DNA of 48,114 nucleotides, taken from positions 1-48,114 of IMG/VR virus record IMGVR_UViG_3300044971_001110. One strand, 5' to 3'. Position 1 is the stretch's first letter; each line of letters starts with the position of its first letter. A program made the translations under genes and the position numbers. Below are positions 4,890 to 30,100 of the stretch, piece by piece. Source of the stretch: a virus. The notes beneath the pieces were generated by a model, which searched no databases, had not been told where the DNA came from, and saw nothing but the letters and a program-made list of their open reading frames with translations.

Positions 4890-7800
4890 TGGCAAGATTA
4901 ATACCTCGTAAACAAATTGAAGAACAACAAGACCTATCCGGTTCATTACGAATTGGTGGAGATTTAATTGTTACTGGAAGTGCCCTATTTAGTAGTTCTT
5001 TACAGGTTGATAATGATTTCTTTTTAGGAAATGAATTAACTGATAGGGGTGAAATTACTGGTTCGGTTTTTCTTACAGGTTCTTTAATTATTGATGGTGA
5101 ATTAAATCTTGCTAACTTAACGTTATTATCTGCAACTGCATCTAACGCATTATTAGCAGAAGATACTATATTGTACGATGGGATTCGTTCTAGAGATTTT
5201 GGTGCAAATTTACCTACACTTTATGTATCTTCAACCGATGGAGATGATTCAAATGATGGTAGAAGTATTCAATACCCACTTCGTACAATTAAAAAAGCAG
5301 CATCATTAGCAACACCTGGTTATGATGGTAGATATGGTTTTGATACTGGTTCTGTATTTAATGGATATGTAATTAAAGTACAAGCAGGAACATATTTGGA
5401 AGATAATCCTGTAATACTTCCAAAAAACACAAGTATTTGGGGTGCTGGTTTGCGTATTACTAAAATTAACGCTAAAAGTCCAACAGAAGACCTATTTCAT
5501 GTAAACTCTGGATGTTATATTGCAGAGGTAACTATGGGTGGTTTGAGATTATTCCCAGACCAAATAAATCCTGAAAGAGGATTTGCTGTGGCATTTCAAC
5601 CAGGAGCGTTCATAACAACTTCCCCATACATTCAGAACTGCTCGCAGATTTCGAATCAGGAGAACTCATTTACGGAACTCTATGAGGATATTCCACCGGG
5701 TGGTGGTGGTCTTTATGTTAATGGTGATGTGGTAGACCCAGATTCACCATTGGCTTCAATGGTATTAGATGCCTACACTCAAATTTCTCCAAACGGAGTT
5801 GGGTGTTTGGTTAATGGTAGAGGTTTTATTCAGTTGGTATCTTTCTTTAATAACTTTTCATACTATTCTATTAGAGTAAACAATGGTGGACATGCTACAC
5901 TAAACAACTCAAATATTTCATTTGGTTTGTATGGTATGTATGCATCTGGTTCTCGTTTTATTTCTGGCAGTGGTGGTAACATTGCAGCTAGAGATAGTGT
6001 AAGAGGAACTTGGAGTTGTGTTGTTGATGTTCTTAACAAAGGATTGGAAAACGGATTACCAACCATAACAAAATTAAATACTGATGAGGGTATTCGTTTA
6101 ACTTCACCTGTATTATACACACAAAGTAGAGTACCGGCAACAACAACATTATCAACTGCTGCCGCAGATGAAATATCTTCGGATTATAAATTAATAAGTG
6201 AAATTGTTGATAAAGGTGTATCTAATTTCCCAACTTTATTAGCAAAAAGTTCTATAAAAGGATATGGATTTGATTCTCCATATAATATTTTAGGAGCACA
6301 ACAAATAACATCATCAATATCAGCTACTCAACATGATTTAAATACTACAAGTGCATCATATGCAGCTTTGTTAAGTATATTAGCAAATGGTACTGGTTCA
6401 TTTAACTTTAAATCTAACACTAGTGCTAGTAGAAAAATTGGTAACGATACGATTCAACCAATAGCAAATGAATCTCCACTTACGTCAAGTGTAAGTTCAT
6501 CATTTGGTACAGTACTTAATATTATTACAAAGGGTGTTTCTGTTAAACCAACTTATGTAGCAAATGCAAGTGGTAGTATAAAGGGGGGAACTACCGACCA
6601 AACCATGCTTGGTGTAACATCATCTTTAGCAACAATAAATTCCGTAAGTGCAAGTTTTAGCATTGTTTATAATATTTTAGCAAATGGTACTGGTAGTAAT
6701 ATTTTACCAATACCGGCTAATCACCAAAAATCTTTTGTAATAACAAATAATAATAGTTCTTCATTTAATTTTGAAGGAATTGGCAATAATCCTACATTAA
6801 CTTTATTTAGAGGAGAAACCTACAAATTTAACGTAGATGCGATAGAAGATTTTGGTGGAATTGAATATCCTTTTTGGATTAGAACAGAACAATTAGAAGG
6901 TATTACTGAAAAATATGATTATAATATTGGTATGGTAAATAATGGTGATAGTAGAGGTACAATAACATTTACAGTACCTTATAACGCACCAAATAGATTA
7001 TATTATGTATCGCAGAATAGAAGTTCAATGGGGGGTACGATTGATATAATAAATTCATCCACAACACCATTTGACTTAATTAAGAATACATTAACATATC
7101 CAGCTACAATACAAAGTAGTTCAATAGCTAAAACAAACATTGATGTTGTAACAGCATATGAAATATTAGTAAATAACAAAGAATTTATCAAAGATGAGGT
7201 AATACAATTCGTATCATCGTCTTGGAGTGGGTTTTCATATTTGGAAGAAACCTGTAAAAGAGATGTTGGATATATTGTAGATGGTGTAGCAAAAGACCTA
7301 CTTTTTGGAGGTAACGAAGAAAGTATTAGAAATGGTTTATTTTATTATCAATTTCCATCCGAAGCAATAACTACACAATTAGGACCAACATTAACTGCTA
7401 TGAAACATGCAGCCGGAGTGTCACTAAATTTAATTAGAGGTAAAGTTTATACAGAACCATCAACGGAAGCAGATGATGTTTGGGATACTATTAGAGATAA
7501 CAAAACATTTGTACAAAATGAAGTAATAACTTATTTATCATCATCTTGGTCTAATTTTTATTATAATGAGGAAAAATGTAGACGTGATGTTGGGTACATT
7601 TTAGATGCAGTAGCAACTGATGCAAAATATGGTGGAAATGAAAGAAGTATAATTGCTGGTGAGTACTATTATCAATTTCCATCATTGGCAATCGTACGAG
7701 GTGATGGTGATGGTGTTGGACAATTAGGACAAACTGCGGATGGTATTAGATATGCTGGTGGATTGATTAATAATTTATTAAAACAAAAACCATTTACAGC

Positions 7801-10800
7801 TCCCGATGCAACAACATTATCTGCATACAACAATTTAATAAACAATAAAGAATTAATTCAAAACGAAACAATTCAATTTATTAATGTTTCATTTCCAAAC
7901 TTAAAATATAATCAAGCAACTTGTAAAAGAGATGTTGGGTATATTGTTGATAATATAGCAACCGATTTATTATATGGTGGAATTGAAAGAGGTGTAACTG
8001 CTGGTAGATATTATTACGATTATCCATCTTTAGCAACTACAACTCAAAGAACATCAACTATTGCTGGTATTAGATATGCAAAAATTATTGGAGATACTAT
8101 TGTTCAAAATCAAATATTAGATACCCCACGTATTGTTTTTAATGATGAGAAGAATTTTAGATTATCATCTTTAACAAATCAAACATCATCTTTTAGTGGA
8201 AGTGTGACTCAACAAAATTATGTTAGTAGTTCGTTTACTATAATAGAATCAATTGTAAAAAGAGGTATTTCGGTAATACCTTCAATTTTAGCACAAAATA
8301 ATGGACAAAATTGGAGTAATACAAATCCATTAAATATTACAAATGGTGTTCAAATAACATCAACAACATCTTCTGCTAATTTAACATCTTCAATTAATAC
8401 TAAATTTGATATAATTACTTCAATTATTCAAAGTGGAAGTTCAACATCACCTGCTATAACTTCATCTCAATCTGATTTGATTATTGTAAGTGGTTTAACT
8501 TTAACAACCGCCTCATCCGCAACTCAAGCAGAAGCTAATTTAATTAGTTCTTCTATTGGTACAATTATAAACATTGTACAAAATGGAACAGGTTCAATAC
8601 CTACATTTCAATCAAATACATCACAAAGTATTAAAGTTACAAATGTAACTCAATGGACTGGTAGTAATGCAACTCAAACACAAGCAACTGCAATTAGTTC
8701 ATCGGTTGAAACAATTAAAAATATTATTAAAAATGGGTTAGGTGTAGTTCCTACAATTACCCTAAATACATCACAAAGTATTAAAGTAACGAATACACCA
8801 CAATACATTTCATCATCATTTAGTGGTACATCTGCTGAAGCAACTTTAATATCAGCATCAATATCATTGGTAGTTGATATTTTAAGTGGAAATAGTGGAG
8901 TAACATCATCATTATTATTACCAACATCATCATATGTATCCGCATCTAATAATATAGTTGTATATTATGCATATAATTTATTAAAACAAAACATTCCATT
9001 TATTCAGGCAGAAACTATTGCTTATCTATCTTCTTCTTGGAATGGGTTTGTATTTAATGATGTAAGTTGTAGTAGAGATATTGGTTTAATTGTAAATGGA
9101 GCAGCGGAAGATTTATTATATAATTCATATTCAGCATCATTAGTAAATGGAAAATACTATTTAGAATATCCATCAGCAGCAACTGGTTCTCAATTAAATC
9201 AAACTGTAGATGGTATAAAGTATGCTAGTAAATTAGCACAAAAAACTTTACAAAATATAGTTTATTCTTTTGCAAATACCGAAGTACAAAATGCATCATT
9301 ACAATTAAAAAACAATAGAGAATTTATTCAAAGTGAAACTATTGCTTACTTATCATCTTCGTGGGGTAATTTTGATTATAATGATGTTAAGTGTAAGAGA
9401 GATATTGGACACGTAATTGATGCAGTAAGAACGGATTTAGTATATGGTGGAAATGAGAGAAGTGTAACGGCTGGTGCATTTTATTATTTATACCCATCCC
9501 AAGCAACTGGTTCTCAATTAATACAAACAATTGATGGTATCGATTACGCAAGTAGAATAACACAAAAAGTTGTTGTTGGTACTACTTTTGTAACTGCTTC
9601 ACAAAACAAAACAAATGCTAGTAATTTATTATCGTTAAATAAAAATTTAATTTCTGAAGAAGTGGTTGCTTATGTAAGTTCTTCTTGGAGAGGTGTTCAA
9701 TATGATGAGATTAAATGTAAGAGAGATGTAAAATATATTATTGATGCAGTAAGAACCGATTTGGTATATGGTGGTAACGAAAGAACAATAACTGCCGGTA
9801 GATTCTATTACTTATATCCATCGGCAGCAACTGTTGGTGGTGTTCCTTCTGTAACAAATCAATTAGACCCAACAATTACTGGTATTAAGTATGGTAGTGG
9901 TTTGGCTCAAAAAATTGTATTAGGTAATACATTTGTAACTGCTTCAAACGAAAAATTAAATGTAAGAAATTTAGTACAAGCAAATAGAGAGTTTATCCAA
10001 ACAGAAACTATTCAATACACTAACGCATTTTATCCTAATTTGGTATATAACCAAGCTTCTTGTAGTAGAGATGTTGGATTTATTGTAGATAGTGTAGCAA
10101 CTGATATTGTTTATGGTGGAAACGAACGTAGTGTGGAATCTGGTGTATATTATTACAAATTCCCATCAAAAGCAACTTCGGTAGAGCAAAAAGGACAAAC
10201 AATAGATTCAATAGATTATGCAAATAGTTTAGTGAACAAATTAGTATCAAATATTACATTAGATACAATTAATTTTGGTAAAAATACGGATGGTAACATA
10301 AAAGTATCTGATGTAATTCAATTAACATCTGCCAATAGTGGAAGTTCTACTGAAGTAACAAATGTTTCTTCATCATTTAGTATTGTAACTAAAATTATTG
10401 AGGGTGGTGTTGAAGTAAAACCATCAATTGTATCAAATGTTGAAAGTAGAATAAAAGTAAATAACATTTTTCCAATCACAGCATCTAATTCAGCTAGTGG
10501 TAGTGAAATTGGTTTAATTACTGCTTCATTTAATTTGATTACTGATATTATTGAGAATGGTTCATCATCTTTACCTGATTCATTAGTTTCTAATTTTCCA
10601 TCGTTATATGGATTTAATCTAAATAATCCAAACTTATGGAATATTAGTTCAGATTCTCAAATAATTGGAATTGGAACATATCCAACCGAAACAAATGTTG
10701 TAAGTTCTTCATTTGGAACTGTAGTTAATATAATTGCAAATGGTACTGGTTCAATTCCTACATTGGTAACAAATGCCAGTGGTTCAATTACAAAGACGGG

Positions 10801-13800
10801 ATTACTACCAACTGCAAATACACAAACTGCTGGGCAATTTGAAATAAATAAAGTATCATCTGGTTTTGGAATTGTTTTGGATATTGTAGAAAATGGAACA
10901 TCGTTACTTCCAACAATTGTATCAAATACATCGGCAAGTATTAAGATAACCAACACACCACAAATTATAAGTGGAAGTGGTGGAGCAAGATTGCAAGGTA
11001 AATTAATATCAGCATCCTTATCTTTAGTAATTGATGTGTTATTGAACAATGGTACAAGCTCAATTGGATTTAGACCATCAACATTCCCAATAGCAAATAC
11101 AAATACAAAAATAAATTCGGCATATAATCTATTAGTAAGTAACTCTAAATTCATAGTTGATGAAACTATTGCTTATATGAGTTCATCTTGGAGTGGATTT
11201 GCATATACTCAAAGTAAGTGTGAGAGAGATTTGACAGGAATCCTTAGTGGTTCTGCATTTGACCTTTTATATGGTGGTAATTCGGCATCGTTGTTTAATG
11301 GTAAGTTCTATTTTGATTTCCCATCACAGGCTACCGGTTCACAATTAGACCAAACAATTACCGCAATCAAATACGCAAGTGGTGTGGCTGAGAAGGTTGT
11401 ACAAAATATTGTATTAACTCACATATCAGCATCAGCAACTATTTCGGCATCTTATGTAGCACTAACTAAAAATAAAGGATTTATTCAAAGTGAAAGTATA
11501 GCTTATGTAAGTTCTTCTTGGAGTGAGTTTGGATATGATGAAATTAAGTGTGCTAGAGATATTGGATACATAGTAGATGCGGTAAGAACTGATTTATTAT
11601 ATGGTGGAAATGAAAGAAGTATTATAGCTGGAAAATATTATTATGATTTCCCATCTCAAGCTACCGATTCTCAATTAGAACCAACTTTAACTGGTGTTAG
11701 ATATGCAAAAGGATTGGCATTGAATGTAATTAAGAATGCACAATTCTATGTAACTTCATCAATTGCATATGATTCAATCAGAAGTAATAAGAAGTTTATC
11801 CAAAGTGAAAGTGTTGCATATATAAACGCTAAATACCCTGATTTCTATTACAATGAAGAAACTTGTAAGAGAGATGTTGGATATATCTTAGATGCAGTTT
11901 CAACTGATTTATTATATGGTGGAAATGAGAGAAGTTCTAAAGCTGGTGAGTTCTATTACTTATATCCATCGGAGGCTACTGATACTCAATTAACTGAAAC
12001 AATAGATGGAATCAAATACGCAGCTAGATTAGTATCTGCTTCTATAAACAATTGGTTGATACCTACACCTGTATCTCAATCTACTGGTTTAACTCCATCA
12101 AACGATTTATCAAAGATTGCTGCATACGATTTATTAACTCAAAACATAGGATTTATCCAAAGTGAGAGTATATCATTCTTATCATCTTCTTGGAGTGGAT
12201 TTGAGTACAATTCAACAACTTGTTCTAGAGATATTAGATATATTGTTGAGGCAGTAGCTGGTGATATTCTTTATGGTGGAAATCATAGTAGTTCTTTAGC
12301 TGGAATTGCATATTGGGAGGCTCCATCAAAAGTAACTGGTTCTCAATTAGACCCAACTGTAACCGCAATTGATTACGCAAAAGGTTTAGCAACTAAATTA
12401 GTTCAAAATCTTTCATTCAATACTGCTTCATTGGTTGTTTCATCATCCGTAGCATTATTAAGAAACAATAGAACATTTATTGTAAGTGAAAGTATGGCTT
12501 ACTTAACTGCAAGTTGGAGTAATTTTGAATATGATAAGATAAAATGTGCTAGAGATTTAGGATACATATTAGATGCAGCAACTACTGATTTATTATACGG
12601 AGGAAACGAAAGAAGTGTAGTAGCTGGTGATTTCTATTACAAATATCCATCAAAAGCAATCTTATTGGGAGATGGTGATGGTGTAGGACAATTAGGACAA
12701 ACAATTGATGGTATAAATTACGCAAGTAGAATAGCACAAAAAATTGTAAGTGGTACTACATTTGTAACAGCTTCATTAGAGGCATCTGCATCATTTGATT
12801 TATTAAGAAAGAATAAAGCATTTATAGCAGAAGAAACTATCGCATATGTATCTTCTTCTTGGAGTAGTGTATATTATAACGAAGCAACTTGTAAAAGAGA
12901 TGTTGGATACTTAATAGATGCGGCAGCAACGGATGTATTATATGGTGGAACTGAAAGAAGTGTGATAGCTGGGCAGTATTATTACTTATATCCATCGAAT
13001 GCAACTAATAAGGGAGTTCCATCTACACAAAATCAATCAGACCCAACACTTACTGGTATCAGATATGCCGGAAGGGTATCTAAAAAGGTAATAACTAACC
13101 CAACATATTTAGTACCATCGGCATCATTATTGACAACCGCAAAATTATTGACAGATAACAAACAATTAATACAAAAAGAAACTATAACGTTCTTATCTGC
13201 ATCTTGGAGTGGTTTAAAATACAATGAAGTGAGTTGTTCTAGAGATTTAGGATTTATTATAGATGCAATTAGAACGGATTTAGTTTATGGTGGTAATGAA
13301 AGAAGTATTGAGGCAGGTTCTTACTACTATAAATTCCCATCAGTAGCAATTTTGGAAAGTTATGGTGATAATAACGGACAGAAAAAACAAACGGTAGATG
13401 GTATAAACTTCGCAAGAGGACTTTCTGAAAAAATAGTAGCAAATACGCTATTAACTTACTTAGCACCAACTACATTAAGAAGACAAGCAGCTGAAAGATT
13501 AAAAGGTGGTAAAGAAGAATTAAAACAAAGAGCAATTGGATACACAAATGGAGCTTTTCCATATTTAGTATATAATGAGGCAAGTTGTTCGCGTGATACT
13601 GGATTTATTGTAGATGCGGCTGTAACTGATTTATTATATGGTGGAAACGAAAGAGGAATCAGAGCAGCATCATCATACTATGATGGTCAATATGGAAGTG
13701 CAATAGCTGTGACTAGAGACCAATTATTGGAAACTTTGGAAACAAATAGATATTTAAGAACTAGAGCAGAGTTTATAGCAGCAGGTGCACCTTTGGAATC

Positions 13801-14092
13801 ATTTGGTTCACTAATTGTGGCAACTGGTATTGACTACTCTTACAATGGTAGTGGTGTTACATTTAAAGCACTTCCCCCAAATCAGGGTGGTAGTGGTGTT
13901 CCAAATCCAATATTTGAAATTACTGAATTAGGTGGTGGTAGAATATTCTTTACCTCTGGAAATCAGGATGGTGACTTTAGAATTGGTACTGGTTTAAGTA
14001 TCAATCAAGCTACTGGAACTTTGGTTGGTAGAACATTTAGTAAATCATTGTTCTCATTAGTAACTCCGTTCTCATTGGCACTACAAATTTAA
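4889..14092 (+). CDS. Giant virion repeat protein with beta-helix head, 3067 residues
   Basis: Residues 1-100 are fibre-type beta repeats (SLRIGGDLIVTGSA). Residues about 105-375 look like a pectate-lyase-type right-handed beta-helix, opening with LYVSSTDGDDSNDGRSIQYP and an RTIKKA helix. Short B repeats follow (about 420-610), then a cupredoxin-like domain without copper ligands (about 614-721). From about 750 to 2940 there are 15 copies of a 108-117 residue A repeat centred on C.RDVGYI.DAV.TDLLYGGN and ending YYY.YPS.A, in arrays of 3, 4 and 8 separated by B-repeat blocks. The end (GRIFFTSGNQDGDFRIGTGL, INQATGTL) is like the C terminus of long structural proteins I recall from marine T4-like phages. 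All cysteines after about residue 375 lie in the A-repeat motif. It is probably a long appendage, whisker or fibre. Enzymatic activity of the beta-helix is not shown. Confidence 0.8.
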   Translation: MARLIPRKQIEEQQDLSGSLRIGGDLIVTGSALFSSSLQVDNDFFLGNELTDRGEITGSVFLTGSLIIDGELNLANLTLLSATASNALLAEDTILYDGIRSRDFGANLPTLYVSSTDGDDSNDGRSIQYPLRTIKKAASLATPGYDGRYGFDTGSVFNGYVIKVQAGTYLEDNPVILPKNTSIWGAGLRITKINAKSPTEDLFHVNSGCYIAEVTMGGLRLFPDQINPERGFAVAFQPGAFITTSPYIQNCSQISNQENSFTELYEDIPPGGGGLYVNGDVVDPDSPLASMVLDAYTQISPNGVGCLVNGRGFIQLVSFFNNFSYYSIRVNNGGHATLNNSNISFGLYGMYASGSRFISGSGGNIAARDSVRGTWSCVVDVLNKGLENGLPTITKLNTDEGIRLTSPVLYTQSRVPATTTLSTAAADEISSDYKLISEIVDKGVSNFPTLLAKSSIKGYGFDSPYNILGAQQITSSISATQHDLNTTSASYAALLSILANGTGSFNFKSNTSASRKIGNDTIQPIANESPLTSSVSSSFGTVLNIITKGVSVKPTYVANASGSIKGGTTDQTMLGVTSSLATINSVSASFSIVYNILANGTGSNILPIPANHQKSFVITNNNSSSFNFEGIGNNPTLTLFRGETYKFNVDAIEDFGGIEYPFWIRTEQLEGITEKYDYNIGMVNNGDSRGTITFTVPYNAPNRLYYVSQNRSSMGGTIDIINSSTTPFDLIKNTLTYPATIQSSSIAKTNIDVVTAYEILVNNKEFIKDEVIQFVSSSWSGFSYLEETCKRDVGYIVDGVAKDLLFGGNEESIRNGLFYYQFPSEAITTQLGPTLTAMKHAAGVSLNLIRGKVYTEPSTEADDVWDTIRDNKTFVQNEVITYLSSSWSNFYYNEEKCRRDVGYILDAVATDAKYGGNERSIIAGEYYYQFPSLAIVRGDGDGVGQLGQTADGIRYAGGLINNLLKQKPFTAPDATTLSAYNNLINNKELIQNETIQFINVSFPNLKYNQATCKRDVGYIVDNIATDLLYGGIERGVTAGRYYYDYPSLATTTQRTSTIAGIRYAKIIGDTIVQNQILDTPRIVFNDEKNFRLSSLTNQTSSFSGSVTQQNYVSSSFTIIESIVKRGISVIPSILAQNNGQNWSNTNPLNITNGVQITSTTSSANLTSSINTKFDIITSIIQSGSSTSPAITSSQSDLIIVSGLTLTTASSATQAEANLISSSIGTIINIVQNGTGSIPTFQSNTSQSIKVTNVTQWTGSNATQTQATAISSSVETIKNIIKNGLGVVPTITLNTSQSIKVTNTPQYISSSFSGTSAEATLISASISLVVDILSGNSGVTSSLLLPTSSYVSASNNIVVYYAYNLLKQNIPFIQAETIAYLSSSWNGFVFNDVSCSRDIGLIVNGAAEDLLYNSYSASLVNGKYYLEYPSAATGSQLNQTVDGIKYASKLAQKTLQNIVYSFANTEVQNASLQLKNNREFIQSETIAYLSSSWGNFDYNDVKCKRDIGHVIDAVRTDLVYGGNERSVTAGAFYYLYPSQATGSQLIQTIDGIDYASRITQKVVVGTTFVTASQNKTNASNLLSLNKNLISEEVVAYVSSSWRGVQYDEIKCKRDVKYIIDAVRTDLVYGGNERTITAGRFYYLYPSAATVGGVPSVTNQLDPTITGIKYGSGLAQKIVLGNTFVTASNEKLNVRNLVQANREFIQTETIQYTNAFYPNLVYNQASCSRDVGFIVDSVATDIVYGGNERSVESGVYYYKFPSKATSVEQKGQTIDSIDYANSLVNKLVSNITLDTINFGKNTDGNIKVSDVIQLTSANSGSSTEVTNVSSSFSIVTKIIEGGVEVKPSIVSNVESRIKVNNIFPITASNSASGSEIGLITASFNLITDIIENGSSSLPDSLVSNFPSLYGFNLNNPNLWNISSDSQIIGIGTYPTETNVVSSSFGTVVNIIANGTGSIPTLVTNASGSITKTGLLPTANTQTAGQFEINKVSSGFGIVLDIVENGTSLLPTIVSNTSASIKITNTPQIISGSGGARLQGKLISASLSLVIDVLLNNGTSSIGFRPSTFPIANTNTKINSAYNLLVSNSKFIVDETIAYMSSSWSGFAYTQSKCERDLTGILSGSAFDLLYGGNSASLFNGKFYFDFPSQATGSQLDQTITAIKYASGVAEKVVQNIVLTHISASATISASYVALTKNKGFIQSESIAYVSSSWSEFGYDEIKCARDIGYIVDAVRTDLLYGGNERSIIAGKYYYDFPSQATDSQLEPTLTGVRYAKGLALNVIKNAQFYVTSSIAYDSIRSNKKFIQSESVAYINAKYPDFYYNEETCKRDVGYILDAVSTDLLYGGNERSSKAGEFYYLYPSEATDTQLTETIDGIKYAARLVSASINNWLIPTPVSQSTGLTPSNDLSKIAAYDLLTQNIGFIQSESISFLSSSWSGFEYNSTTCSRDIRYIVEAVAGDILYGGNHSSSLAGIAYWEAPSKVTGSQLDPTVTAIDYAKGLATKLVQNLSFNTASLVVSSSVALLRNNRTFIVSESMAYLTASWSNFEYDKIKCARDLGYILDAATTDLLYGGNERSVVAGDFYYKYPSKAILLGDGDGVGQLGQTIDGINYASRIAQKIVSGTTFVTASLEASASFDLLRKNKAFIAEETIAYVSSSWSSVYYNEATCKRDVGYLIDAAATDVLYGGTERSVIAGQYYYLYPSNATNKGVPSTQNQSDPTLTGIRYAGRVSKKVITNPTYLVPSASLLTTAKLLTDNKQLIQKETITFLSASWSGLKYNEVSCSRDLGFIIDAIRTDLVYGGNERSIEAGSYYYKFPSVAILESYGDNNGQKKQTVDGINFARGLSEKIVANTLLTYLAPTTLRRQAAERLKGGKEELKQRAIGYTNGAFPYLVYNEASCSRDTGFIVDAAVTDLLYGGNERGIRAASSYYDGQYGSAIAVTRDQLLETLETNRYLRTRAEFIAAGAPLESFGSLIVATGIDYSYNGSGVTFKALPPNQGGSGVPNPIFEITELGGGRIFFTSGNQDGDFRIGTGLSINQATGTLVGRTFSKSLFSLVTPFSLALQI
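6150..6715 (+). repeat. B repeats, first block (about 4 copies)
   Basis: Within the 3067-residue protein, units of about 35-70 residues follow the pattern SSSFGTVLNII.NGTGSIPT: a short Ser-rich turn, an amphipathic helix-like I..I segment and a G-containing loop. This block precedes the cupredoxin-like domain. Confidence 0.6.
7150..8115 (+). repeat. A repeats, array 1 (3 copies)
   Basis: Three tandem copies with conserved Cys codons at 7253, 7577 and 7922 (spacings 324 and 345 bases). Each unit runs from an NK.FIQ.E helix and SSSW motif through C.RDVGYI.D, LLYGGN and YYYQFPS to a Q..DGI.YA helix. Confidence 0.8.
8160..8935 (+). repeat. B repeats, second block (about 5 copies)
   Basis: About five copies of the helix-loop B unit (for example SSSIGTIINIVQNGTGSIPT), separating A arrays 1 and 2. 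The Cys-to-Cys interval across it is 1146 bases, nearly the same as across the third block (1158). Confidence 0.65.
8960..10265 (+). repeat. A repeats, array 2 (4 copies)
   Basis: Four tandem copies with Cys codons at 9068, 9392, 9716 and 10061 (spacings 324, 324 and 345). The first copy is degenerate: DLLYNSYSASL replaces the usual LLYGGNERS. Confidence 0.8.
10280..11065 (+). repeat. B repeats, third block (about 5 copies)
   Basis: About five B units (for example SSSFGTVVNIIANGTGSIPT) between A arrays 2 and 3. It has the same length and position as the second block, which suggests that a block of A plus B units was duplicated as a whole. Confidence 0.65.
11110..13725 (+). repeat. A repeats, array 3 (8 copies)
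   Basis: Eight tandem copies with Cys codons near 11219, 11549, 11874, 12221, 12545, 12890, 13235 and 13586. Spacings are about 324-351 bases. The first copy (ERDLTGILSGSAFDLLYGGN) resembles the degenerate first copy of array 2, and the last copy grades into the unique C-terminal domain. Confidence 0.8.
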
Positions 14093-15054: not shown

Positions 15055-18000
15055 ATGGCAATAAGCAACCTATTAAGTGGTAGAGTTCGATTAAAAGGAC
15101 CTAAAAATGTAACATCAGATAGATACGAATTTGTAGATTTATCCCAAGTTGAACCAAACTTTGGTGTTCCTTCATTTTCGGCATCTTTAGAATCCAATCC
15201 GGCTATTTTAATTACGGATAGTGAGGGTAATAGAGGATTTGCACAAAAAATTGTATTAAATGAAATAACATCTTCATTTAAAGGTATTGCTGACCTTTCT
15301 GGTTCATTTAGTGGTTCATTTTTAGGAAATTTTGTAGGAGATGGTAGTGGTTTAGTAAACGTACCATCCGTAGTTGCACCATTTATTGCAAGTGGTTCGC
15401 AAACTGCATCATTTGATGGTACTTCATTAGTTGTAAATACTAATGCAATAATTCAAGGTAATACATCAATTGAAGGTAATTTATATGTATCAAAATCAAT
15501 ATATGCGGAATCTCTTATAGTAACGTATATATCATCATCAATAATTTATTCATCAGGTTCTAACATATTTGGAGATAGTGGGTTTGATAACCAACAACTA
15601 ACAGGTTCGGTTGGAATTAGAGATATTTTAACGGTAAATAGTGCAACTGGTTCATTTAGTGGTTCATTTATAGGAAGTGTAATTGCAACTGGTTCATTTA
15701 CTGGTTCATTTAGTGGTTCATTTTTTGGAGATGGTAGTGGACTAACAAATATACCAGCATTAACCGCAACTTTAATAGCAAGTGGTTCTACAACTGCTTC
15801 AATTGCACCAAATACTGGTTTGGTAGTAAACACATTTGCTAATTTTGAATATTCGGTATCTGCATCAATGTTTACTGGTAGTGGTGCTGGTTTATTTGAC
15901 ATACCTCGTTCTGCTTTAACACCGGATGCATTAACTTCGAATAGAATTGCTAGTGGTTCGGCAACTGCATCAATTCAAGATAGTACTGGATTGTTGGTAA
16001 ATGTACCCGCATTCTTTGAATATTCAGTATCAGCATCAATGTTTAGTGGTAGTGGTAGAGGATTATTTGATATTCCTATTTCAAATCTATCTGGTGATGC
16101 TAGTAGAATTGCAAGTGGTAGTGTAACTGCATCGGTAAGTCCTGATACGGGATTTGTGGTTCAATCATTAGAAAGTGGTTCTCAATTTACTGGTTCATTA
16201 TTTGTAAGTGGTGGAATTGAATTAAGTTCTGGTTCATCATTTAGTGGTAGTGGAGCTAGATTGTTTGATATACCTCGTTCAGCATTAACACAGGATGCAT
16301 TAATATCAACCGAAATAAAATCAGGTTCAGTAACTGCTTCGGTTTCACCTGATACCGGATTTTTAGTAACTTCAATAGATAGTGGTTCTACATTTAGCGG
16401 AAGCTTAATTGTTAGTGGAAATATAGTAATACCCACCGGTAGTGGATTTTTTAGTGGTAGTGGTGCTGGTTTAACCGATATACCTCGTTCAGCATTAACA
16501 TTTGATGCTTTACTAACAACTGAAATTAAATCTGGTTCTGTGACAGCATCGGTGTCACCTGATGGTGGATTTGTTGTAACATCTTTAGAAAGTGGTTCTA
16601 CATTTATTGGGAATGTGGTTGTTAGTGGTAGTGTATCATCATCATTTTTTATTGGAGATGGTTCTCAATTGTTTAATATACCGGCATTAACCGCAACTTT
16701 AATAGAAAGTGGTAGTGTGATTGCTTCCGTTAGTCCAAATAAAGGATTTGTAGTAACTTCAGTAGCAAGTGGTAGTACATTTAGTGGAAGTTTAATTGTT
16801 AGTGGTAATATACAGGTTGAAACTGGTTCATTCTTTAGTGGTAGTGGTGCTGGTTTAAAAGACATACCTCGTTCGGCATTATCGGTAGATGCTTTAGTAT
16901 CAACTGAAATTAAATCAGGTTCGGTAACTGCTTCGGTAGCACCAAATACTGGTTTTGTAGTAACTTCGGTAGTAAGTGGTTCAACATTTAGTGGAAGTTT
17001 ATTTGTAAGTGGTGGTATTCAAATAACAACTGGTTCATTCTTTAGTGGTAGTGGTAAAGGATTGTTTGAAATACCACAATCAGCTTTAGCATTTGAAATT
17101 AATAAAATAGCAAGTGGTTCAGCAACCGCATCTATATCTCCTGTTGACGGATTTATAGTAAATGTACCTGCTAATTTTGAATATACGGTATCGGCATCTA
17201 TGTTTACTGGTAGTGGTGCTGGTTTATTTGATTTACCATTATCGGCATTATCACAAGAAGTATTTAGAATAGCATCTGGTTCAGTAACCGCATCCGCAAT
17301 ACCTGATAGAGGATTTGTTGTAGAATCGGTTGAAAACGGAACTAAAATAAGTGGAAGCGTTGATGTAAGTGGTAGTGTAACTATTAATAGTAGTTCATTT
17401 TTCATTGGAGATGGTAGATTCCTTTCAAACATAACACTTGCTAACTTAGCAATTGATTCAACAAAGATATTTAGTGGAAGTGCTACGGCATCAATCTCAC
17501 CATCGGAAGGATTTAATGTAAATGTACCTGCATTCTTTACAAATACTGTATCTGCATCCATTTTTAGTGGAAGTGGTAAAGGATTATTTGATATTCCACA
17601 ATCTGCATTAGCAACCGAAGCATATAGAGTAGCAAGTGGTAGTGTAACTGCATCAGCTGACCCATTGACTGGATTTGGTATAAACGCAATTACAACAATT
17701 AGTGGTAGTTTAATAGTATCATCATCTGGTTGGGAATTATCAACATCTTCATTAGATACTACATTTAATGTGGTAAATGCTGGTAGTGGAGAATATGTAT
17801 TTAGTGGAGCGGCTAGTGGTTCAAATCCTACTTTAGTTTTATATCAAAATGTACCATATACATTTAATATTGCAGCAACAGGTCACCCTTTTTGGATAAA
17901 GACCACTAAAACAACTGGAACTTTAGATACATATGATATTGGTGTAGTAAATAATGGAGCTTCAAATGCCACAATAACATTTACACCACCAACTGGTTCT

Positions 18001-21000
18001 CCTAATATTTTATATTATAATTGTCAATTCCATAGTTCAATGGCAGGTACAATTATTATAAAAGAAAAATATCAAATTGACCCTACTATTAAATTTATAG
18101 GGGATACTATTGTAAGTGGTAATTTATATGTACCTAGTTCTTCATATTTTATTGGAGATGGTAGATATCTTTCTAATATTACTCTTGCCAACTTAGCAAT
18201 TGATTCAACAAAGATATTTAGTGGTACGGCAACTGCATCTATTTCACCTGTTGATGGATTTGTAGTTAATACATTTTCAACATTCGAATTTCCTGTTTCC
18301 GCATCAATGTTTAGTGGTAGTGGTAGAGGATTATTTGATATACCTCAATCAGCATTAGCAAGTGAAGTATTCCGTATTGCTAGTGGTAGTGTAACTGCTT
18401 CAGTAGCACCCAATACTGGTTTATTAGTAACTTCAATAGTAAGTGGTTCAATTTTTAGTGGTAGTATTTCGGTAAGTGGTTCGATAACAATACCAAGCGG
18501 TAGTGGATTTTTTAGTGGTAGTGGGGCCGGATTATCAGATATTCCTCGTTCTGCTTTAACTATTGATGCACTAATTTCTAATAAAATAACAAGTGGTTCA
18601 GCTACGGCATCGATTTCACCAAATAAAGGATTGGTTGTAAACACATTTACTACCATTAGTGGTAGTTTTGTAGTTTCATCATCGGCTAGACCTACTCCAT
18701 TGGATGAATTACCAAATACATTTGATGTAGTAAACGATGGAAGTTCTGCATATTGGTTTAGTGGAGCAGCTAGTGGTTCAAATGTAAATTTAACATTAGT
18801 AAGAGGTAATTCTTATATTTTTAACGTAGATGCGGTAGGATATTCATTTTGGATTAATAGTGCTAGTGCAATTGGTAATCAAAACGGATATGATAGTTGG
18901 GTAACTAATAATGGTGAAGATAACGGAACTATATCGTTCTTAGTTTCAAGTAGTGCACCTGATACTCTTTATTACAATAATGAGAATAATGTTGCAATGG
19001 CTGGTACTATTAATGTAGTAGATGCCATCTATATCCCATCGGAAATAAAATTAGTTGGTGATACTAAAGTTGTTGGTGTAGTAACTGCATCGGTATTTAG
19101 TGGTAGTGGTGCTGGTTTATTTGATATCCCTCGTTCAGCTTTAACACCTGATGCATTGGTAGCAACATTAATAGCATCAGGTTCGGTAACTGCTTCAGTA
19201 GACCCTGCATATGGATTCAAAGTAATATCAAATGATTATAGTGGTTCGGAAGTTAGTGGTTATGGTATAATTCTTAGTGGAAGTACTGTTGTAAGTGGTT
19301 CGGTAGCTGCATTTACATTTATTGGAGATGGTTCTCAATTACAAAATGTAGTAGCAGCGGCATCACCAAGAATTCAAAGTGGTTCGGTAACTGCTTCGGT
19401 TTCACCTAATACTGGATTTTTAGTAACTTCAGTAGCAAGTGGTTCTACATTTAGTGGAAGTGTTGTAGTAAGTGGTTCAGTAAGAGCAACAACTTATTTT
19501 GGAGATGGTTCTCAATTGACCGGTGTAATTGCTGAAATTTCCGGAGATGCACCTCGTATTGCTAGTGGTAGTGCAACCGCATCAATATCACCAAATAATG
19601 GACTGATATCAAATGTACCTTTAACAATTCAAAGAAATGCAAACTTTAGTTCTAGTTTAGTTGTTAGTGGTAGTACATTATTAAGTGGTTCGATATCGGC
19701 ATCATTTTATAGAGGAGATGGTGGTGGACTATTTAACATTCCAGCTGAAGCATTGACAAATCTAGAATTGGATAGACTAGTTTCCGGCTCTGCTTTAGCT
19801 ATATTAGACCCACAAAAATTAAATGTAAACGTAACGGTAACTGCATCATTTTTTGCTGGAGATGGTGGTGGGTTATTTAACATTCCTGCTGAATCATTAC
19901 AAGACCTTCAATTAGATAGAATTCAATCGGGTTCTGTTGAAGCTGTCATATCTCCAAACAGAGGATTGGAAATAAATACCGATACTTCAATTGAAAGTGG
20001 TTCGTTGCATGTAACTGGTTCAATTATTGTTCAAAGTGGTTCAATTATTGTTCAAAGTGGTAGTAGATTTGTTGGAGATGGTAGTGGTTTGAATAATATC
20101 AACATTGCAAATCTATCATTTGAAACATTTATAATGAAATCGGGCTCATTTACGGCATCGATTTCACCTGATAATGGTTTTGTTGTTAATACATCGGCAA
20201 GTATCTATGGTAGAACTTATTCTGATTTTATAACAACGCCTGAATTAACCGCAAGTTTTGCATATTCTCCATTCTTTAGTGGTTCATTTAATGGTACATA
20301 TACATTTAATGGAGCTGGTATCGAAGCATCTGCGGAATACAATACTTTAAGATATGATGAGAATAGGGGATACTATATTCCTCAACCCGAAACTTCATTA
20401 ACGGAGACTGTACCATTTAGTAACGCAAGTTCGGTAACGATTGTACATAATTTGGATATTAGATACCCAATGGTACAGGTGTATGGAACTGGTTCGCAAG
20501 ATGAAATGATTCTTCCTGCATCTATTTTAGCAATCGATAATAACACTGTTCAAGTAACATTTAGTGGATTGACAAGTGGACATATCGTAATTGGTAGTGG
20601 TGGTTCGTTAATAAATGGTACAATTCAGGCGGATAGAGTAATTGGAACGGTACTTTCCTCATCACATGCGGTAAACGCTAATTTTGCAACCATAGCTGGC
20701 AGTGTAATAGGATTAAATACGGCATCTTTAGAAGCATTAATATCAGCATCGGTAAATGCTGGTGAATTTGTGTTAAATTCACAAACCGCATCGATGACAG
20801 TATTAAGTGCATCGTTTGCTAGAACTGCTTCTTACGCATTATTTGCACAAAACGCATCAAATGTTGATACTGCTAACTTTGTACAAAATGCACAAACCGC
20901 ATCAATGTTGGTTGGTACTGCTTCATTAGCAGTTTCCGCATCTTACGCACTAACCGCATCTCATGTATTAGGTGGGGTATTATCTGCGGAAGGATTTATT

Positions 21001-24000
21001 ACAAATGCACAAACTGCATCGATGACAGTATTTAGTTCATCATTTGCAAGTATTGCACAATTTGCATTAAATGCACAAAGTATAGATACATCATCATTCT
21101 TACTAAATTCAGGTAATCAAAGATTTAGTGGTAGTTTGGTAATAACTGGTAGTTTAGATATTACTGGTAGTGTATATATACAACAATTTTATACATCATC
21201 AGCCTCTCAATTGGTTGTAACTTGGGACCCTACTACTAAAAAATTAGAAACAAGAGATGTTCAGCAGGCAGCCGGTACTTCTGGTACTTCTGGTACTTCT
21301 GGTACTTCTGGTACAAATGGTACGGATGGTACTTCTGGAACAAGCGGAACATCTGGTACAAGCGGTACTTCGGGAACAAGTGGAATTGATGGTACTTCGG
21401 GAACATCTGGAACATCTGGAACATCTGGAACAAGTGGTTCATCAGGTTCATCTGGTAGTAGCGGTTCAAGTGGTTCATCTGGTACAAGCGGAACTTCTGG
21501 AACTTCTGGAACAAGCGGTAGTAGTGGTACAACTGGTTCGGACGGTACTTCTGGAACAAGCGGTAGTAGTGGTACAACTGGTTCGGATGGAACATCTGGA
21601 ACATCTGGAACTTCTGGAACTTCTGGTACATCTGGAAGTGGGGGAACATCTGGAACATCTGGAACTGCTGGTACAAGCGGAACATCTGGTACTAGTGGAA
21701 CATCAGGTACATCCGCAACATCTGGAACAAGTGGAAGTAGTGGCACACGTGGTACAAGTGGAACAAGCGGTACAAGTGGTACAAATGGAACTGCTGGTAC
21801 TGCTGGTAGTGGTGGAACATCTGGTTCTTCTGGTACTTCGGGTACTTCTGGTGTAAACGGATTAAATGGTACATCGGGAACATCTGGTACGTCTGGTTCA
21901 TCAGGAACAAGCGGAACATCTGGAGCAAAAGGTTCGGATGGAATAGATGGTAGTGCAGGTAGTGGGGGTACTTCTGGTACAAGTGGAACATCTGGTAGTG
22001 ATGGAGCTGATGGTTCTGATGGAACTTCTGGCACATCTGGTACATCGGGCACATCTGGTTCCGGTGGTTTATCTGGTACTTCTGGTACTTCTGGTACTTC
22101 TGGTACAAATGGTACTTCTGGAACTTCTGGTACTTCTGGAACAAGTGGTATAAGTGGAACAAGCGGAACAAGTGGTACATCGGGAACTTCTGGGTTAAAT
22201 GGTACTTCTGGTACAAGCGGTACTTCTGGTACAAGCGGTACATCTGGTACAAGCGGTACATCTGGTACAAGCGGTACAAGCGGTACTTCTGGTACTTCAG
22301 GAACCGATGGAACAAGCGGTACTTCTGGTAGTAGTGGTACAACTGGTTCGGATGGTACATCTGGTACAAGCGGTACATCTGGTACAAGCGGTACTTCTGG
22401 TACAAGCGGAACTGATGGTACATCTGGTACAAGCGGAAGTAGTGGTACAACTGGTTCGGATGGTACATCTGGTACAAGCGGTACTTCTGGAACAGATGGG
22501 ACAAGTGGAACTTCTGGAACTGATGGTACTTCCGGTTCATCTGGAACTTCTGGTGTTGGGACTGATGGTACATCTGGTACAAGCGGTACATCTGGTACAA
22601 GCGGTACGGATGGTACATCTGGTACAAGCGGAACTGATGGTACATCTGGTACAAGCGGTTCATCTGGTACAAGCGGAACTTCTGGAACTTCGGGAATCGA
22701 TGGTACATCGGGTACAAGCGGAACTGATGGTACATCGGGTACAAGCGGAACTGATGGTACATCAGGTACAAGTGGTACTTCTGGAACAAGCGGAACAAGC
22801 GGAACTTCTGGAAGTGATGGTACAAGTGGGACAAGTGGTACAAATGGTACAAGTGGTAGTGATGGAACATCTGGTACAAGTGGTAGTAGTGGTACATCGG
22901 CTGAAGGTTCATCTGGTACAAGCGGAACATCTGGTACAAGTGGTAGTGATGGTAGTTCTGGAACAAGCGGAACTTCTGGAACTGATGGAACATCTGGTAC
23001 TTCGGGTACAAGCGGTACTTCAGGTATATCAGGTACATCTGGTACAAGCGGTATTGATGGAACTTCTGGTACTTCGGGTACCGATGGAACATCTGGTACA
23101 TCTGGAACAAGTGGATTAGATGGAACTTTATTTGGTTCATCTGGTACTTCAGGCACAAGTGGTACATCTGGTACTTCAGGCACAAGTGGTACATCTGGAA
23201 CAAGCGGAACAAGTGGTGAAAGTGGTACATCTGGTACTAGCGGTACTGATGGAACTTCTGGTACTGATGGAACTTCTGGTACATCTGGGACCGATGGTAC
23301 ATCTGGAACTTCTGGGACTTCTGGTACTTCTGGTTTAGATGGAACATTGTTTGGCTCATCTGGAACAAGTGGGACAAGTGGAGAAAGTGGTACAAACGGT
23401 ATTTCTGGGACTGATGGAACTTCTGGTACATCGGGTACAAGCGGTACTTCTGGTTTAGATGGAACATTCTTTGGTTCATCTGGTACAAGTGGAGAAAGCG
23501 GTACTTCTGGTTCATCTGGTGTTAGTGGTACTGATGGTATATCTGGTACAAGCGGTACTTCTGGTTTAAATGGAACATTCTTTGGCTCATCTGGTACAAG
23601 TGGAGAAAGCGGTTCATCTGGTACAAGTGGAGAAAGCGGTTCATCTGGTACAAGTGGCGAAAGTGGTACATCTGGTACAAGTGGTGTAGATGGTACATTC
23701 TTTGGTTCATCTGGTACAAGCGGAACTTCTGGTTCATCTGGTGTTGGGACCGATGGTACAAGCGGAACGAGTGGTACATCTGGTACAAGTGGACAAGATG
23801 GAACTTTTTTTGGAACAAATGGTACATCTGGTACATCTGGAACATCTGGTTTAGATGCTACCAATGGAACTTCTGGTACATCGGGTACATCTGGTACAAG
23901 TGGACAAGACGGAACTTTCTTTGGAACTTCTGGAACAAGTGGTACATCTGGAACATCTGGAATTGATGCTACTGATGGAACTTCTGGCACATCTGGAACT

Positions 24001-25023
24001 TCTGGCACATCTGGTTTAGATGGTACATATTTTGGTTCGTCTGGAACATCTGGAACAAGTGGTACTTCGGGTACATCTGGGACAGATGGCACATCTGGAA
24101 CTTCTGGAACTTCTGGGACTTCTGGTTTAGATGGAACATTCTTTGGTTCGTCTGGTACAAGTGGTACATCAGGAACGTCTGGTACATCTGGTTCAACTGG
24201 AACAGATGGTACATCGGGAACGTCTGGTACATCTGGTTTAGATGGAACTTTATTTGGTAGTAGTGGTACATCAGGAACGTCTGGAACGTCTGGAACATCT
24301 GGTGAAGGTACAAATGGTACATCTGGAACTTCTGGTTCATCTGGATTAGATGGAACAAATTTTGGTTCATCTGGAACTTCTGGAACATCGGGTACATCTG
24401 GAGCTGGAACATCTGGTTCGTCTGGTTTAAGTGGTTTCTTAGCATTGACAGGAACTACTGATAATGGTGTTATCACATTAGATGGTACTGCACCAAATGG
24501 ACGGGTTGAAAGTAATTTAACTTTTGATGGTAGTACATTAACTGTAACTGGTACAATTCAAGCAACTGGACCCGTATCCGCATCAGCATTTAACATTTAT
24601 ACCGGTGGAACTCCTAATTTGACTTCACCCACATCTTTAAACATAATTGCAACAAATGGTGTAAATCTATCAACTAGTTTATCTACAACTGGATTTACAA
24701 CATCAACAACTTTCAGAGAAACTTTCTCTGATTTAGGAAGTGGTAGTGGTGCATCAATTGATTTATCAACTGCTAACAACTTTAAGAGAACTTTTACTGG
24801 AAATGGTTCAATATCATTCTCAAATGCACCTGCTGGAAAAGCATTTGGATTTACATTATTAGCAGTAAACGCAGGAGCACATTCATTAGCTTGGAGTGGT
24901 GTAAATTGGGTAGGTGGTACACCTCCAATTTTAACTTCATCTGGTGAGGATATATTAGTATTTTACACATTTGATGGGGGCTCATCTTATTATGGATTTG
25001 TGACCGGATTAAACATGAATTAA
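15055..25023 (+). CDS. Giant collagen-like tail fibre, 3322 residues
   Basis: Residues about 60-1720 contain about 21 copies of a 45-75 residue beta unit ([16 protein letters not shown], then IASGS.TAS.SP..GF.V). Two cupredoxin-like domains interrupt them at about 903-1005 and 1223-1323; the first keeps His944, Cys990, His993 and Met996, the second has lost them except Met1315. A beta domain near 1760-1850 ([18 protein letters not shown]) is common in phage fibres. Next come ASFA..ASYAL repeats (about 1880-2020) and a Pro-free Gly-Thr-Ser tract (2074-3127). A cap ([19 protein letters not shown]) and a C-terminal domain ending [16 protein letters not shown] complete it. Probably a trimeric long fibre used for host contact. 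It shares repeats, cap and linkers with the fibre at 27111. Cys990 is the only cysteine I can find. Confidence 0.85.
17761..18066 (+). other. Cupredoxin-like domain with intact type-1 copper ligand set
   Basis: Residues about 903-1005 of the large fibre. GHPFWI supplies His944 and [12 protein letters not shown] supplies Cys990, His993 and Met996, the order His...Cys-x2-His-xn-Met expected of a mononuclear cupredoxin copper site. A strand pattern ([15 protein letters not shown], then ATITFTPP) fits the Greek-key fold. The His-to-Met spacing is shorter than in plastocyanin, so metal binding is a prediction. Confidence 0.65.
18721..19026 (+). other. Cupredoxin-like domain, ligands lost
   Basis: Second copy in the same fibre (about 1223-1323) with the same strand order and GAASGSN linker. 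The ligand positions read Tyr1263, Asn1309, Asn1312 and Met1315 instead of His, Cys, His and Met, so it should not bind copper in the type-1 manner. Confidence 0.6.
21274..24435 (+). repeat. Collagen-like Gly-Thr-Ser tract, 1054 residues
   Basis: Gly at every third residue, mostly GTS with GTD, GSS, GSD and GTN variants, residues 2074-3127. No proline or cysteine is present and lysine is almost absent (one GAKG). Breaks in the triplet register include GTSATSG, SAEGSSG, GVGTDG and eleven (L/F)FGSSG-type insertions in the last third. Either a collagen triple helix or polyglycine-II-like packing is possible. Confidence 0.9.
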
Positions 25024-27110: not shown

Positions 27111-30100
27111 ATGGAGTTCAACGGTAAAAGTCCCAATGGGTTAAATCAAAATAGTGTAAATAGTGTATCACTTTTTGTAAGTGGTTCATCTATTTTAACT
27201 GCTACTTCAGAATCGGTAAGTGTTGTTGGTAAACTAAGTGGTTCGGCCGTACAAACTTATCAAATTGGGACTCCAAACGGAGCAACATTACAAATAAATG
27301 CAAATTCACAATTTAGTGGTTCAGTATCGGCATCATTATTTACAGGAAATGGTAGTGGTTTAACGAATATCAATGCATCTTCAATTGGTGATTTGGATAG
27401 AATTAAATCAGGTTCAGCACAAGCAGTAATTTCACCAAATTTAGGATTAGTTGTAAATACAAATACAACGATAAGTGGTTCATTAAATATTAGTGGTAGT
27501 GAAAACATAAATGGTGGAAATTTAAACATAGTTAGTGGTGGTATTAATGTAAACGCACCCGATACTTCAATTTCAATAACCGCAACTACTAATGGTAGAA
27601 CAATTGCAATTACACCATCTAATGGTAGAATAGATTCAACAAATGTAGATTTATATCTTAATAGGGCATCAACATCTAATGTAATTTTAGCAAATGGTGG
27701 TGGAAATGTTGGTATAAGAAAAACACCAACAACTCAATTTGATATAAGTGGTTCAACTTTTATATCTGGTGCACTAAGAATAACTGGTTCTCAAACTTTA
27801 GTGGGTAATTCAAGTGTGATTGGAAATCAAACCATCACTGGTAATGAAACAATAACTGGAAATTTAAGTGTTGGTGGTACAATAAACGCAACTGAATTAA
27901 AAGTAACTTATATATCATCATCAATTATTTTTTCATCTGGTTCAAACAAATTTGGTGATGCAAGTAACGATAAACAAGAAATAACAGGTTCGTTAGGTAT
28001 AAGTGGTAGTTTAGCAGTTTCTGGTAGTGTTAGATTTGATAATACCAATGTAACTACCGATAATACAACGCAAGAATTCTTAGTACTTAATACAACTACT
28101 GGTGTGGTTGGTAGAAGAACTGCAGCTGCATCATCTGGTACTTCTGGTACTTCTGGAACATCTGGAACAAGCGGTAGTGGTGGTTCATCTGGTACAAGCG
28201 GTAGTGGTGGTACAAGCGGTAGTGGTGGTTCATCTGGTTCATCTGGTTCATCTGGTACGGATGGTTCGTCTGGTAGTGGTGGTACATCTGGTAGTGGGGG
28301 TTCTTCTGGAACAAGCGGAACTTCTGGTACTTCTGGTACTTCTGGAACAAGCGGTAGTAGTGGTACAAGAGGAACTGCTGGTAGTGGTGGTACATCTGGT
28401 TCATCTGGTTCATCTGGTTCATCTGGTTCTTCTGGTACATCTGGTAGTGGAGGTACTTCTGGAACTTCTGGTTCAAGTGGTAGTAGTGGTACTACTGGTT
28501 CATCTGGTACATCTGGTAGTGGTGGAACAACTGGTTCATCTGGTACAACTGGCTCTTCTGGAACGAGTGGTACATCCGCAACTTCTGGAACATCTGGTAC
28601 AAGTGGAACATCTGGTACTTCCGGTACAAGTGGTATAACTGGAGCTGGTGGTTCATCTGGTAGTAGTGGTTCATCTGGTAGTAGTGGTTCTTCGGGAACT
28701 GCTGGTACTTCGGGTACATCAGGTACTTCTGGTTCTTCTGGAACTGTAGGTACTTCGGGTTCATCAGGTAGTAGTGGTTCTTCTGGAACTACTGGTTCAA
28801 GTGGAACATCTGGAACATCTGGAACGAGTGGTAGTAGTGGTGTAACTGGAGCTGGTGGTGGTAGTGGAACTGCTGGTAGTGGGGGTTCTTCTGGAACATC
28901 TGGAACAAGTGGTACATCTGGTACACGCGGAACAAGTGGAACAAGCGGAACATCTGGTTCATCTGGTTCTTCTGGTTCTTCTGGAACAAACGGAACTGCA
29001 GGAAGTGGAGGTTCATCTGGAACATCTGGTTCAAGCGGAACATCTGGTAGTAGTGGTTCAAGCGGAAGTAGTGGTTCATCGGGTTCAAGTGGAACAAACG
29101 GAACTGCTGGTAGTGGAGGTTCTTCGGGTACAAGTGGTACATCTGGTACTAGCGGTACAAGCGGAACATCTGGTACTTCTGGAGCATTATCTATAAGTGG
29201 TACAACCGATAATGGTGTAATTACTCTTAATGGTGCATCTCCAAACGTAACTGCGGAGGCTAATCTTAGATTCGATGGTACTACTTTAACGGTAACTGGA
29301 AATGAAACCCTTAGTGGCAACTTAACGGTTGGTGGTACAATCAGAGCACAACAAATATTAGTACAATATATTTCATCATCATTAATATACGCAAGTGGGA
29401 GTAACAAATTTGGTGATGCAACAAATGATACACAAGAATTCACTGGTTCGGTAGATATTAGTGGTTCATTAAGAATTCCAGCATATCCATCAAACCCAAC
29501 GGGAACAAAAGCTGGACAAATATATTATAACACAGCTGATACAAACATATATCGATACAATGGTACAACTTGGTTAGCAGCAGCCGGAACATCTGGTAGT
29601 GGGGGTACAAGTGGTACTTCTGGAACAAGCGGTAGTAGTGGTACTTCCGGCACAAGTGGAACATCTGGTACTTCTGGAACATCTGGTTCAAGTGGTACAA
29701 TGGGAACTGCTGGTACTGGTGGTACAAGCGGTACATCTGGAACTTCTGGAACATCTGGGACACGAGGTACTTCTGGAACAAGCGGTAGTAGTGGTTCATC
29801 TGGAAGTAGTGGTTCTTCTGGAAGTAGTGGTTCTTCTGGAGCAACTGGTGCTAGTGGAACAAGCGGTACTTCTGGAACTTCTGGAACAAGCGGTACTTCT
29901 GGAACATCCGGAACATCTGGGACACGAGGTACTTCCGGAACAAGCGGTAGTAGTGGTTCTTCTGGAAGTAGTGGTTCATCTGGAACAAGCGGTACAAGCG
30001 GTACATCTGGTTCTTCTGGTTCTTCTGGTTTACTTTCATTGACAGGTACAACTGATAATGGTGTAATTACATTAAACGGAACTGCTCCAAACGCAAGTGT

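Follow-up and report, generated by a model that had tools for sequence, protein, structure and literature searches.

A cupredoxin module with a type-1-like ligand set in a giant phage tail fibre and in cyanophage gp9 proteins

Results

A cupredoxin domain with a complete ligand set

The stretch of DNA analyzed here, called the window, is the whole 48,114-nucleotide IMG/VR virus record IMGVR_UViG_3300044971_001110 (positions 1 to 48,114), which encodes several giant structural proteins. One of them, a tail fibre of 3322 residues, contains a domain (copy 2) that is predicted to adopt the cupredoxin fold and carries the four putative ligands of a type-1 copper site:

15055-25023, plus strand: giant tail fibre (P0001), 3322 amino acids, carrying copies 2 and 3 of the domain and a collagen-like region from about residue 2030
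about 17755-18072, plus strand: copy 2, cupredoxin domain with the complete H-C-H-M set, residues about 901-1006, as judged from the AlphaFold2 model, Foldseek, VIA and homologues
17884-17886, plus strand: His944, putative ligand, in the loop that connects model strand 34-39 with strand 45-48
18022-18024, plus strand: Cys990, putative ligand, final residue of model strand 84-89
18031-18033, plus strand: His993, putative ligand, in the loop preceding model strand 96-102
18040-18042, plus strand: Met996, putative axial ligand, in the same loop preceding model strand 96-102

The original prediction had placed a cupredoxin-like domain at 17761-18066, which is the right location with slightly too narrow bounds. 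The four ligand positions that it named in the open reading frame (ORF) at 15055-25023 are correct, and so is its statement that the 3322-residue product has no cysteine other than Cys990. The ligands of copy 2 are spaced C-x2-H-x2-M, the amicyanin type; His53, Cys92, His95 and Met98 are given as the amicyanin ligands, with the same spacing, in an excerpt of PMC12723479.

The AlphaFold2 model of copy 2, built on an alignment of 34 domains, has a mean predicted local distance difference test score (pLDDT) of 97.8 and a predicted template modelling score of 0.89, and shows the eight-stranded beta-sandwich that marks a cupredoxin. When this model was compared to the PDB with Foldseek, 48 of the 50 listed matches were titled cupredoxins, nitrite reductases, laccases or other multicopper proteins, the best being rusticyanin (7.6e-6); the other two were a caa3 oxidase chain (2yev_B) and 3cvd_A, whose title carries no protein name. 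In VIA-align, a three-domain nitrite reductase matched through its first domain (residues 27-133; Z 11.2, 1.9 Å over 89 residues), and a rusticyanin mutant scored Z 10.5. In cupredoxins the first His usually lies in a loop, the Cys at the end of a strand, and the second His and the Met in the loop that follows. Copy 2 has His, Cys, His and Met in this order and in the proper loops. As proposed originally, the modelled fold, the structural matches, and the order and spacing of the ligands thus support a cupredoxin-like domain with type-1 ligand order; on the strength of the model, copy 2 is almost certainly a genuine cupredoxin fold.

At the sequence level the relationship is faint. A PDB search with the single domain returned weak matches only (best E 0.25), and one with the 34-sequence profile found nothing under E 0.1, its weak matches being a copper nitrite reductase (E 0.17), with Cys, His and Met in register with the ligand loop of that enzyme, and auracyanin B (0.85). 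Profile comparison with true cupredoxins of bacterial genomes, used for register only, aligned 18 to 35 C-terminal columns at a probability of 25 to 85%; Cys and Met align with azurin-type proteins in a weak match. Amicyanin, rusticyanin, AcoP and plastocyanin have the same fold and H-C-H-M order as copy 2, and amicyanin also the same loop, whereas curated cupredoxin models barely detect the sequence of the domain. PF00127 (Copper-bind) has no match in the window. Weak matches to PF25489 (At5g54830-like) were obtained for 20 of the 34 domains (best 2.1e-5), with one bacterial protein at 23.7 bits against a cut-off of 27 and window copy 1 at 14 bits, so that a distant kinship with eukaryotic proteins is possible. 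PF25489 may be akin to the animal Knickkopf/Skeletor proteins; a literature search turned up no paper on this. None of our Pfam and NCBIfam scans produced a model that claims the module at its cut-off, so that it goes unseen in proteins labelled, for example, "hypothetical protein" or "tail fiber".

The ligand quartet is kept in fibres and gp9

We gathered 171 distinct domains from 206 loci, window included. The set contains 162 domains with H/C/H/M, 8 without Cys and 1 with Asn in place of Met, counts which are inflated because many loci were found with site-containing patterns. Cys and His993 are both present in 163 domains and both absent in the remaining 8; this coupling was not forced by the fetch, because some patterns left open the choice between Cys and Ser and that among His, Asn and Asp. 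Both His are kept in all 163 Cys-bearing domains. Among the 8 Cys-less ones, His993 is always lost, while His944 is kept in 4 and Met in 7, and Cys is replaced by Ser in 7. The quartet is intact in 21/21 reference-phage domains (20 records) and in 35/35 distinct bacterial domains, the latter a biased count since these were fetched with a pattern containing the Cys position. The same coupling was observed in a profile search of 10 whole records, in which every domain in the fetched stretches was read: all 17 domains with Cys keep His993 and all 8 without Cys lack it. Free variation of Cys and His, which had been set beforehand as the refuting observation, was not seen, the two being kept or lost jointly.

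Two further sets were obtained without the motif. The first 105 residues of the fibre, used as query, gave 29 loci which, with the window, comprise 19 distinct fibres, one of them cut within the domain; at least one intact site is present in 18 of the 18 others, 3 of which (window, L236 and L237) carry a dead copy beside it. This conservation supports, for fibres, the earlier proposal that the site is under selection. The second query was the first 146 residues of a cyanophage gp9, and the best 80 of 391 loci yielded 56 distinct proteins, 5 of them cut. All 51 complete distinct gp9 proteins from these best 80 loci have exactly one Cys, located in the ligand motif (codon TGT in 35, TGC in 16), a result that is modest on its own because gp9 is conserved overall. 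Taken together, selection very likely keeps the site as a unit in fibres and gp9.

Loss of the site

The domain search of the window record returned three sites, copy 2 and two others that the original prediction had missed:

18715-19026, plus strand: copy 3, same fold, in the fibre, residues 1221-1324; Y1263, N1309 and N1312, with M1315 retained
4889-14092, plus strand: giant tail-fibre-like structural protein, 3067 amino acids, bearer of copy 1
6728-7057, plus strand: copy 1, in the ORF at 4889-14092, residues 614-723; Tyr, Ser and Arg for His, Cys and His, with Met retained

Copy 3 lies about 320 residues C-terminal of copy 2, and copy 1 is in the 3067-residue protein upstream; in both, Met is kept while Cys and both His are gone. 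Copy 3 is also modelled as a cupredoxin (pLDDT 94.4), and its first PDB structure matches are AcoP, nitrite reductase and rusticyanin. What stands of the original interpretation is the fold, the ligand order of a type-1 site and, in fibres, selection on that site; the copper binding, sensing and redox chemistry that it proposed are hypothetical, and it has to be amended for the existence of ligand-less copies.

A tree of the 171 rows was built without the ligand columns; it has few columns for its rows. Parsimony places on it 5 changes of Cys, 5 of His993 and 4 of His944. A Fisher value of 6.5e-14 for the Cys/His coupling was rejected, as it treats related rows as independent. One supported clade of four rows, all at the copy-3 place, combines intact sites (L007 and L008), loss of Cys and His993 (L010, L343) and the Y/N/N of the window. 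At this position, related fibres read HCHM (L345), HSDM (L343) and YNNM (window). A single fibre place that is intact, without Cys and His993, or without all but Met constitutes a natural experiment.

Cysteine economy

Cys were counted in the 41 domain-bearing ORFs of at least 1900 residues, some of them truncated where their locus stops. In 36 of these, the Cys count matches that of the intact sites; L033, L074, L076, L118 and the window copy-1 protein (19 Cys but not one intact site) deviate. Together with the relatives in 330 phage records described below, this match is more than chance would give. Eight of the 41 have a dead copy, and 7 of these 8 also retain an intact one. Domain-bearing ORFs under 1900 residues often carry further Cys. 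In the motif-free fibres the two numbers agree in 14 of 18, Cys downstream being uncounted in the 8 ORFs that run past the 3' end of their locus; L219 has one extra Cys (its ORF ends at residue 1656), and L221, L222 and L225 have four extra each. These four Cys are about 20 residues apart, near residues 3218-3341 of fibres that are otherwise nearly Cys-free.

The copy-1 protein (4889-14092), with its 19 Cys, contrasts with its Cys-poor neighbours; it contains repeats, and every repeat has a Cys-Arg-Asp motif (YNExxCxRDVGYI and similar).

Occurrence of the module

By tblastn, relatives of the domain were found in 330 of 50,697 phage records at E <= 0.01, of which 324 are named Synechococcus, Prochlorococcus or Cyanophage. 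Among the rows listed, the annotation "baseplate wedge tail fiber connector" (gp9) is frequent. Searched alone, the domain matches phrog_677, the gp9 "baseplate wedge tail fiber protein connector" of cyanomyoviruses, with an E value of 4.2e-20 over profile positions 302-410 of 412; phrog_677 is not among the matches listed when the whole 3322-residue fibre is scanned. Cyanomyovirus gp9 and the window fibre have a homologous domain, C-terminal in gp9, with the same quartet, but gp9 has about 408 residues and a T4 gp9/10-type N-terminal domain, whereas the window protein is a 3322-residue fibre with two copies of the module. PF07880 (T4_gp9_10_N) matches neither fibre residues 1-900 nor the whole protein (E 0.01), while 10 of 11 gp9-like proteins are above its cut-off, with S-RIM14 (L200) just below. 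The window fibre therefore shares a domain with gp9 but is not a gp9.

The N-terminus of cyanophage gp9 matched T4 gp9, T4 gp10 and related baseplate proteins; T4 gp9 shares this N-terminal family, its sequence match being confined to the N-terminal part (query 3-114). For the C-terminal domain of gp9, sequence search gave no relative of solved structure, and a podovirus protein bearing the domain had no match to solved structures by sequence. The C-terminal domain of T4 gp9 is where the long tail fibre is anchored; this domain swivels and participates in the changes by which the baseplate is unlocked (excerpt of PMC3004832). If the T4 layout holds, the cyanophage module would thus sit where the fibre joins the baseplate, and the C-terminal cupredoxin domain of cyanophage gp9 (L196, L197, L199-L207, L249-L328) may place a copper site at the fibre connector. 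T4 has 18 copies of gp9 (table in PMC3004832); with the same copy number in cyanophages that have this gp9, such as Syn19 and P-SSM7, gp9 could contribute up to 18 copper atoms.

Outside phages, the domain ends bacterial proteins with CHRD (L092, L095) or Lipoprotein_15 repeats (L090, L100), and makes up most of a 146-residue protein (L104). As read from their N-termini, these are putative lipoproteins. The putative secreted lipoproteins of Flavobacteria and others have a related C-terminal domain with the quartet, and are cellular, unlike the phage fibre.

Two other phage genes bear on the family. In S-SCSM2R (L192:2276-2779), a domain gene annotated PetE stands beside a peptidase S8 gene and perhaps encodes a structural protein and not plastocyanin. 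In an actinobacterial phage (L191:1628-2995), a YHYH domain, for which a metal site is predicted (excerpt of PMC7824862), is fused to the cupredoxin domain.

Window context

The neighbouring genes of known type are:

3092-4156, plus strand: T4 gp15-like tail sheath stabiliser
36180-38498, plus strand: tail sheath protein

The tail sheath gene assigns the window to the tail module of a T4-like phage with a contractile tail. The fibre domain is also found at 100% identity in three viral contigs (34, 81 and 207 kb). The reaction-centre family PF00124 was unmatched in 9 of 9 related viral records, which may be fragments, and matched in the tenth record, P-SSM2; because of these nine, a cyanobacterial host is unproven for the window phage.

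At 27111-33839, the window encodes a 2242-residue protein in which collagen repeats are combined with a Peptidase_S74 (endosialidase-type chaperone) at the C-terminus. The fibre part at 19027-21000 is above the cut-off of PF06598, a Chlorovirus glycoprotein repeat family (28.2 vs 27 bits).

Discussion

Our results indicate that the cupredoxin module is a building block of phage tails, whose type-1-like site is kept in fibres and gp9 and lost elsewhere. Single-domain cupredoxins are soluble electron carriers, whereas copy 2 is part of a giant fibre with ligand-less paralogues in the same genome. It is somewhat more likely than not that copy 2 holds copper, or a metal like it, in the virion, and our best guess, by analogy, is that the metal serves to stiffen the module. 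Free copper is scarce in the cytoplasm, where the fibre would be made; copper or another soft metal would then be taken up on release or at the cell surface. The bound metal would pin the C-terminal ligand loop to the loop of the N-terminal His, and the stiffened module would help the fibre, or the joint between fibre and baseplate, to keep its shape. Copies that no longer need metal would swap Cys and His for other residues and live on in a purely structural role; a redox partner would not be required. As a whole, the statement that metal stiffens a cupredoxin module with a type-1-like site, reused in fibre and baseplate proteins of T4-like phages, is put forward tentatively, at close to even chances.

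Several observations weigh against a metal site kept for this use. In the whole records, 17 of 25 distinct domains have Cys, His993 and Met, and 8 lack both Cys and His993. These 8 are two of copy-3 type (window and L343) and six in giant ORFs like the copy-1 protein (L347, L348, L349, L352, L353 and L355/L356; about 3000 to 4700 residues). Cys, His944 and His993 are missing in all six of the latter, and Met too in 3, so that there is a whole class of giant proteins with a ligand-less domain. Most loci behind the 171-domain set were fetched with patterns that contain ligand residues, and the gp9 proteins have a median pairwise identity of 71%, with 120 invariant columns and 405 well-filled ones. 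On the tree, the Cys/His coupling amounts to 2 supported independent pairs only, hence no significance can be claimed for it. The arrangement of the ligands was judged from the order of strands and loops, not from distances. Neither Copper-bind (PF00127) nor amicyanin (TIGR02657) matches copy 2 at E 1; over the 34 domains, Copper-bind matches 3 (best 0.022), amicyanin 5 (best 0.029) and the rusticyanin model 1 (0.0024). Finally, the stiffening role is an argument by analogy alone. Since the window has two ligand-less copies and the copy-1 class exists, the fold also serves without the site, and a plain structural role is probably part of the answer.

Among the alternatives, the least improbable is that the four residues are kept for loop packing and hydrogen bonds, the domain being metal-free in the virion. 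The low level of free copper in the cytoplasm would fit, as would the fold retained by ligand-less copy 3. Met often outlives Cys (7 of the 8 Cys-less domains in the large set, 5 of 8 in the whole records), which suggests a structural use for Met, and 5 of the 8 loss variants of that large set combine Ser with Asp, Asn or Gln, pairs able to hydrogen-bond. Yet the type-1 order and spacing of Cys, His, His and Met are kept across phage fibres, gp9 and bacterial lipoproteins, and the scarcity of all other Cys would be odd if the thiol were idle; we thus regard this possibility as unlikely. A covalent link between chains, holding or releasing the tail through the Cys, would have parallels in the disulfides that lock the tail of phage Milano (excerpt of PMC10811340) and in Cys555 of T4 gp10, discussed as a possible covalent link in the T4 work (excerpt of PMC3004832). 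Against this stand the single Cys per protein, placed amid two His and a Met in ligand order, and the fact that His993 disappears together with Cys, which would not be expected of a disulfide; this is the least probable explanation that we considered.

Cupredoxins are mainly electron carriers (excerpt of PMC4059628), and the hosts in the reference records are Synechococcus and Prochlorococcus, so the site could be an electron-transfer or redox-sensing centre active at the host surface. However, the window revealed neither a partner nor a second redox centre, and the reaction-centre family has no match in the nine related records cited above (P-SSM2 having one), the cyanobacterial host itself being unproven; a redox role is accordingly improbable. 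A decoy, i.e., a metal-loaded fibre docking on metal-uptake receptors, is somewhat less probable still. Type-1 sites bury their metal, the domain lies at residues 902-1005 of 3322, away from the C-terminal end, the gp9 copies belong to the baseplate connector, and receptor evidence is absent from this analysis. The location in fibre and fibre connector is nevertheless compatible with a decoy, which would be a copper version of the Ferrojan horse proposed for iron on tail-fibre HxH motifs (excerpt of PMC11705849). As described there, the HxH sites of T4 type resemble the window site in being metal sites of a phage fibre (putative in the window), with a host-surface role proposed for HxH; they differ in holding octahedral iron through His only, whereas the window has a cupredoxin-type site in a separate domain.

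In the boldest reading, T4-like phages would hold copper both at the joint of fibre and baseplate and within the fibres, and the loading or redox state of this copper would set how stiff the joint is, so that metal at the host surface would help decide baseplate firing; this reading is a long shot.

Among the papers listed by our search of the open-access literature, none had a title or opening lines of its abstract about a cupredoxin domain in phage fibres or in gp9, and in the excerpts of two papers plastocyanin is treated only as the separate petE gene. The fold and the site are of known kinds; what is new is that the phage adhesion machinery has such a type-1-like site, intact, among its regular components. 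If the sites hold metal, cyanomyovirus gp9 and many giant phage fibres would be unrecognised copper proteins, phage infection would be tied to copper chemistry, and the number of copper atoms per virion could simply be measured.

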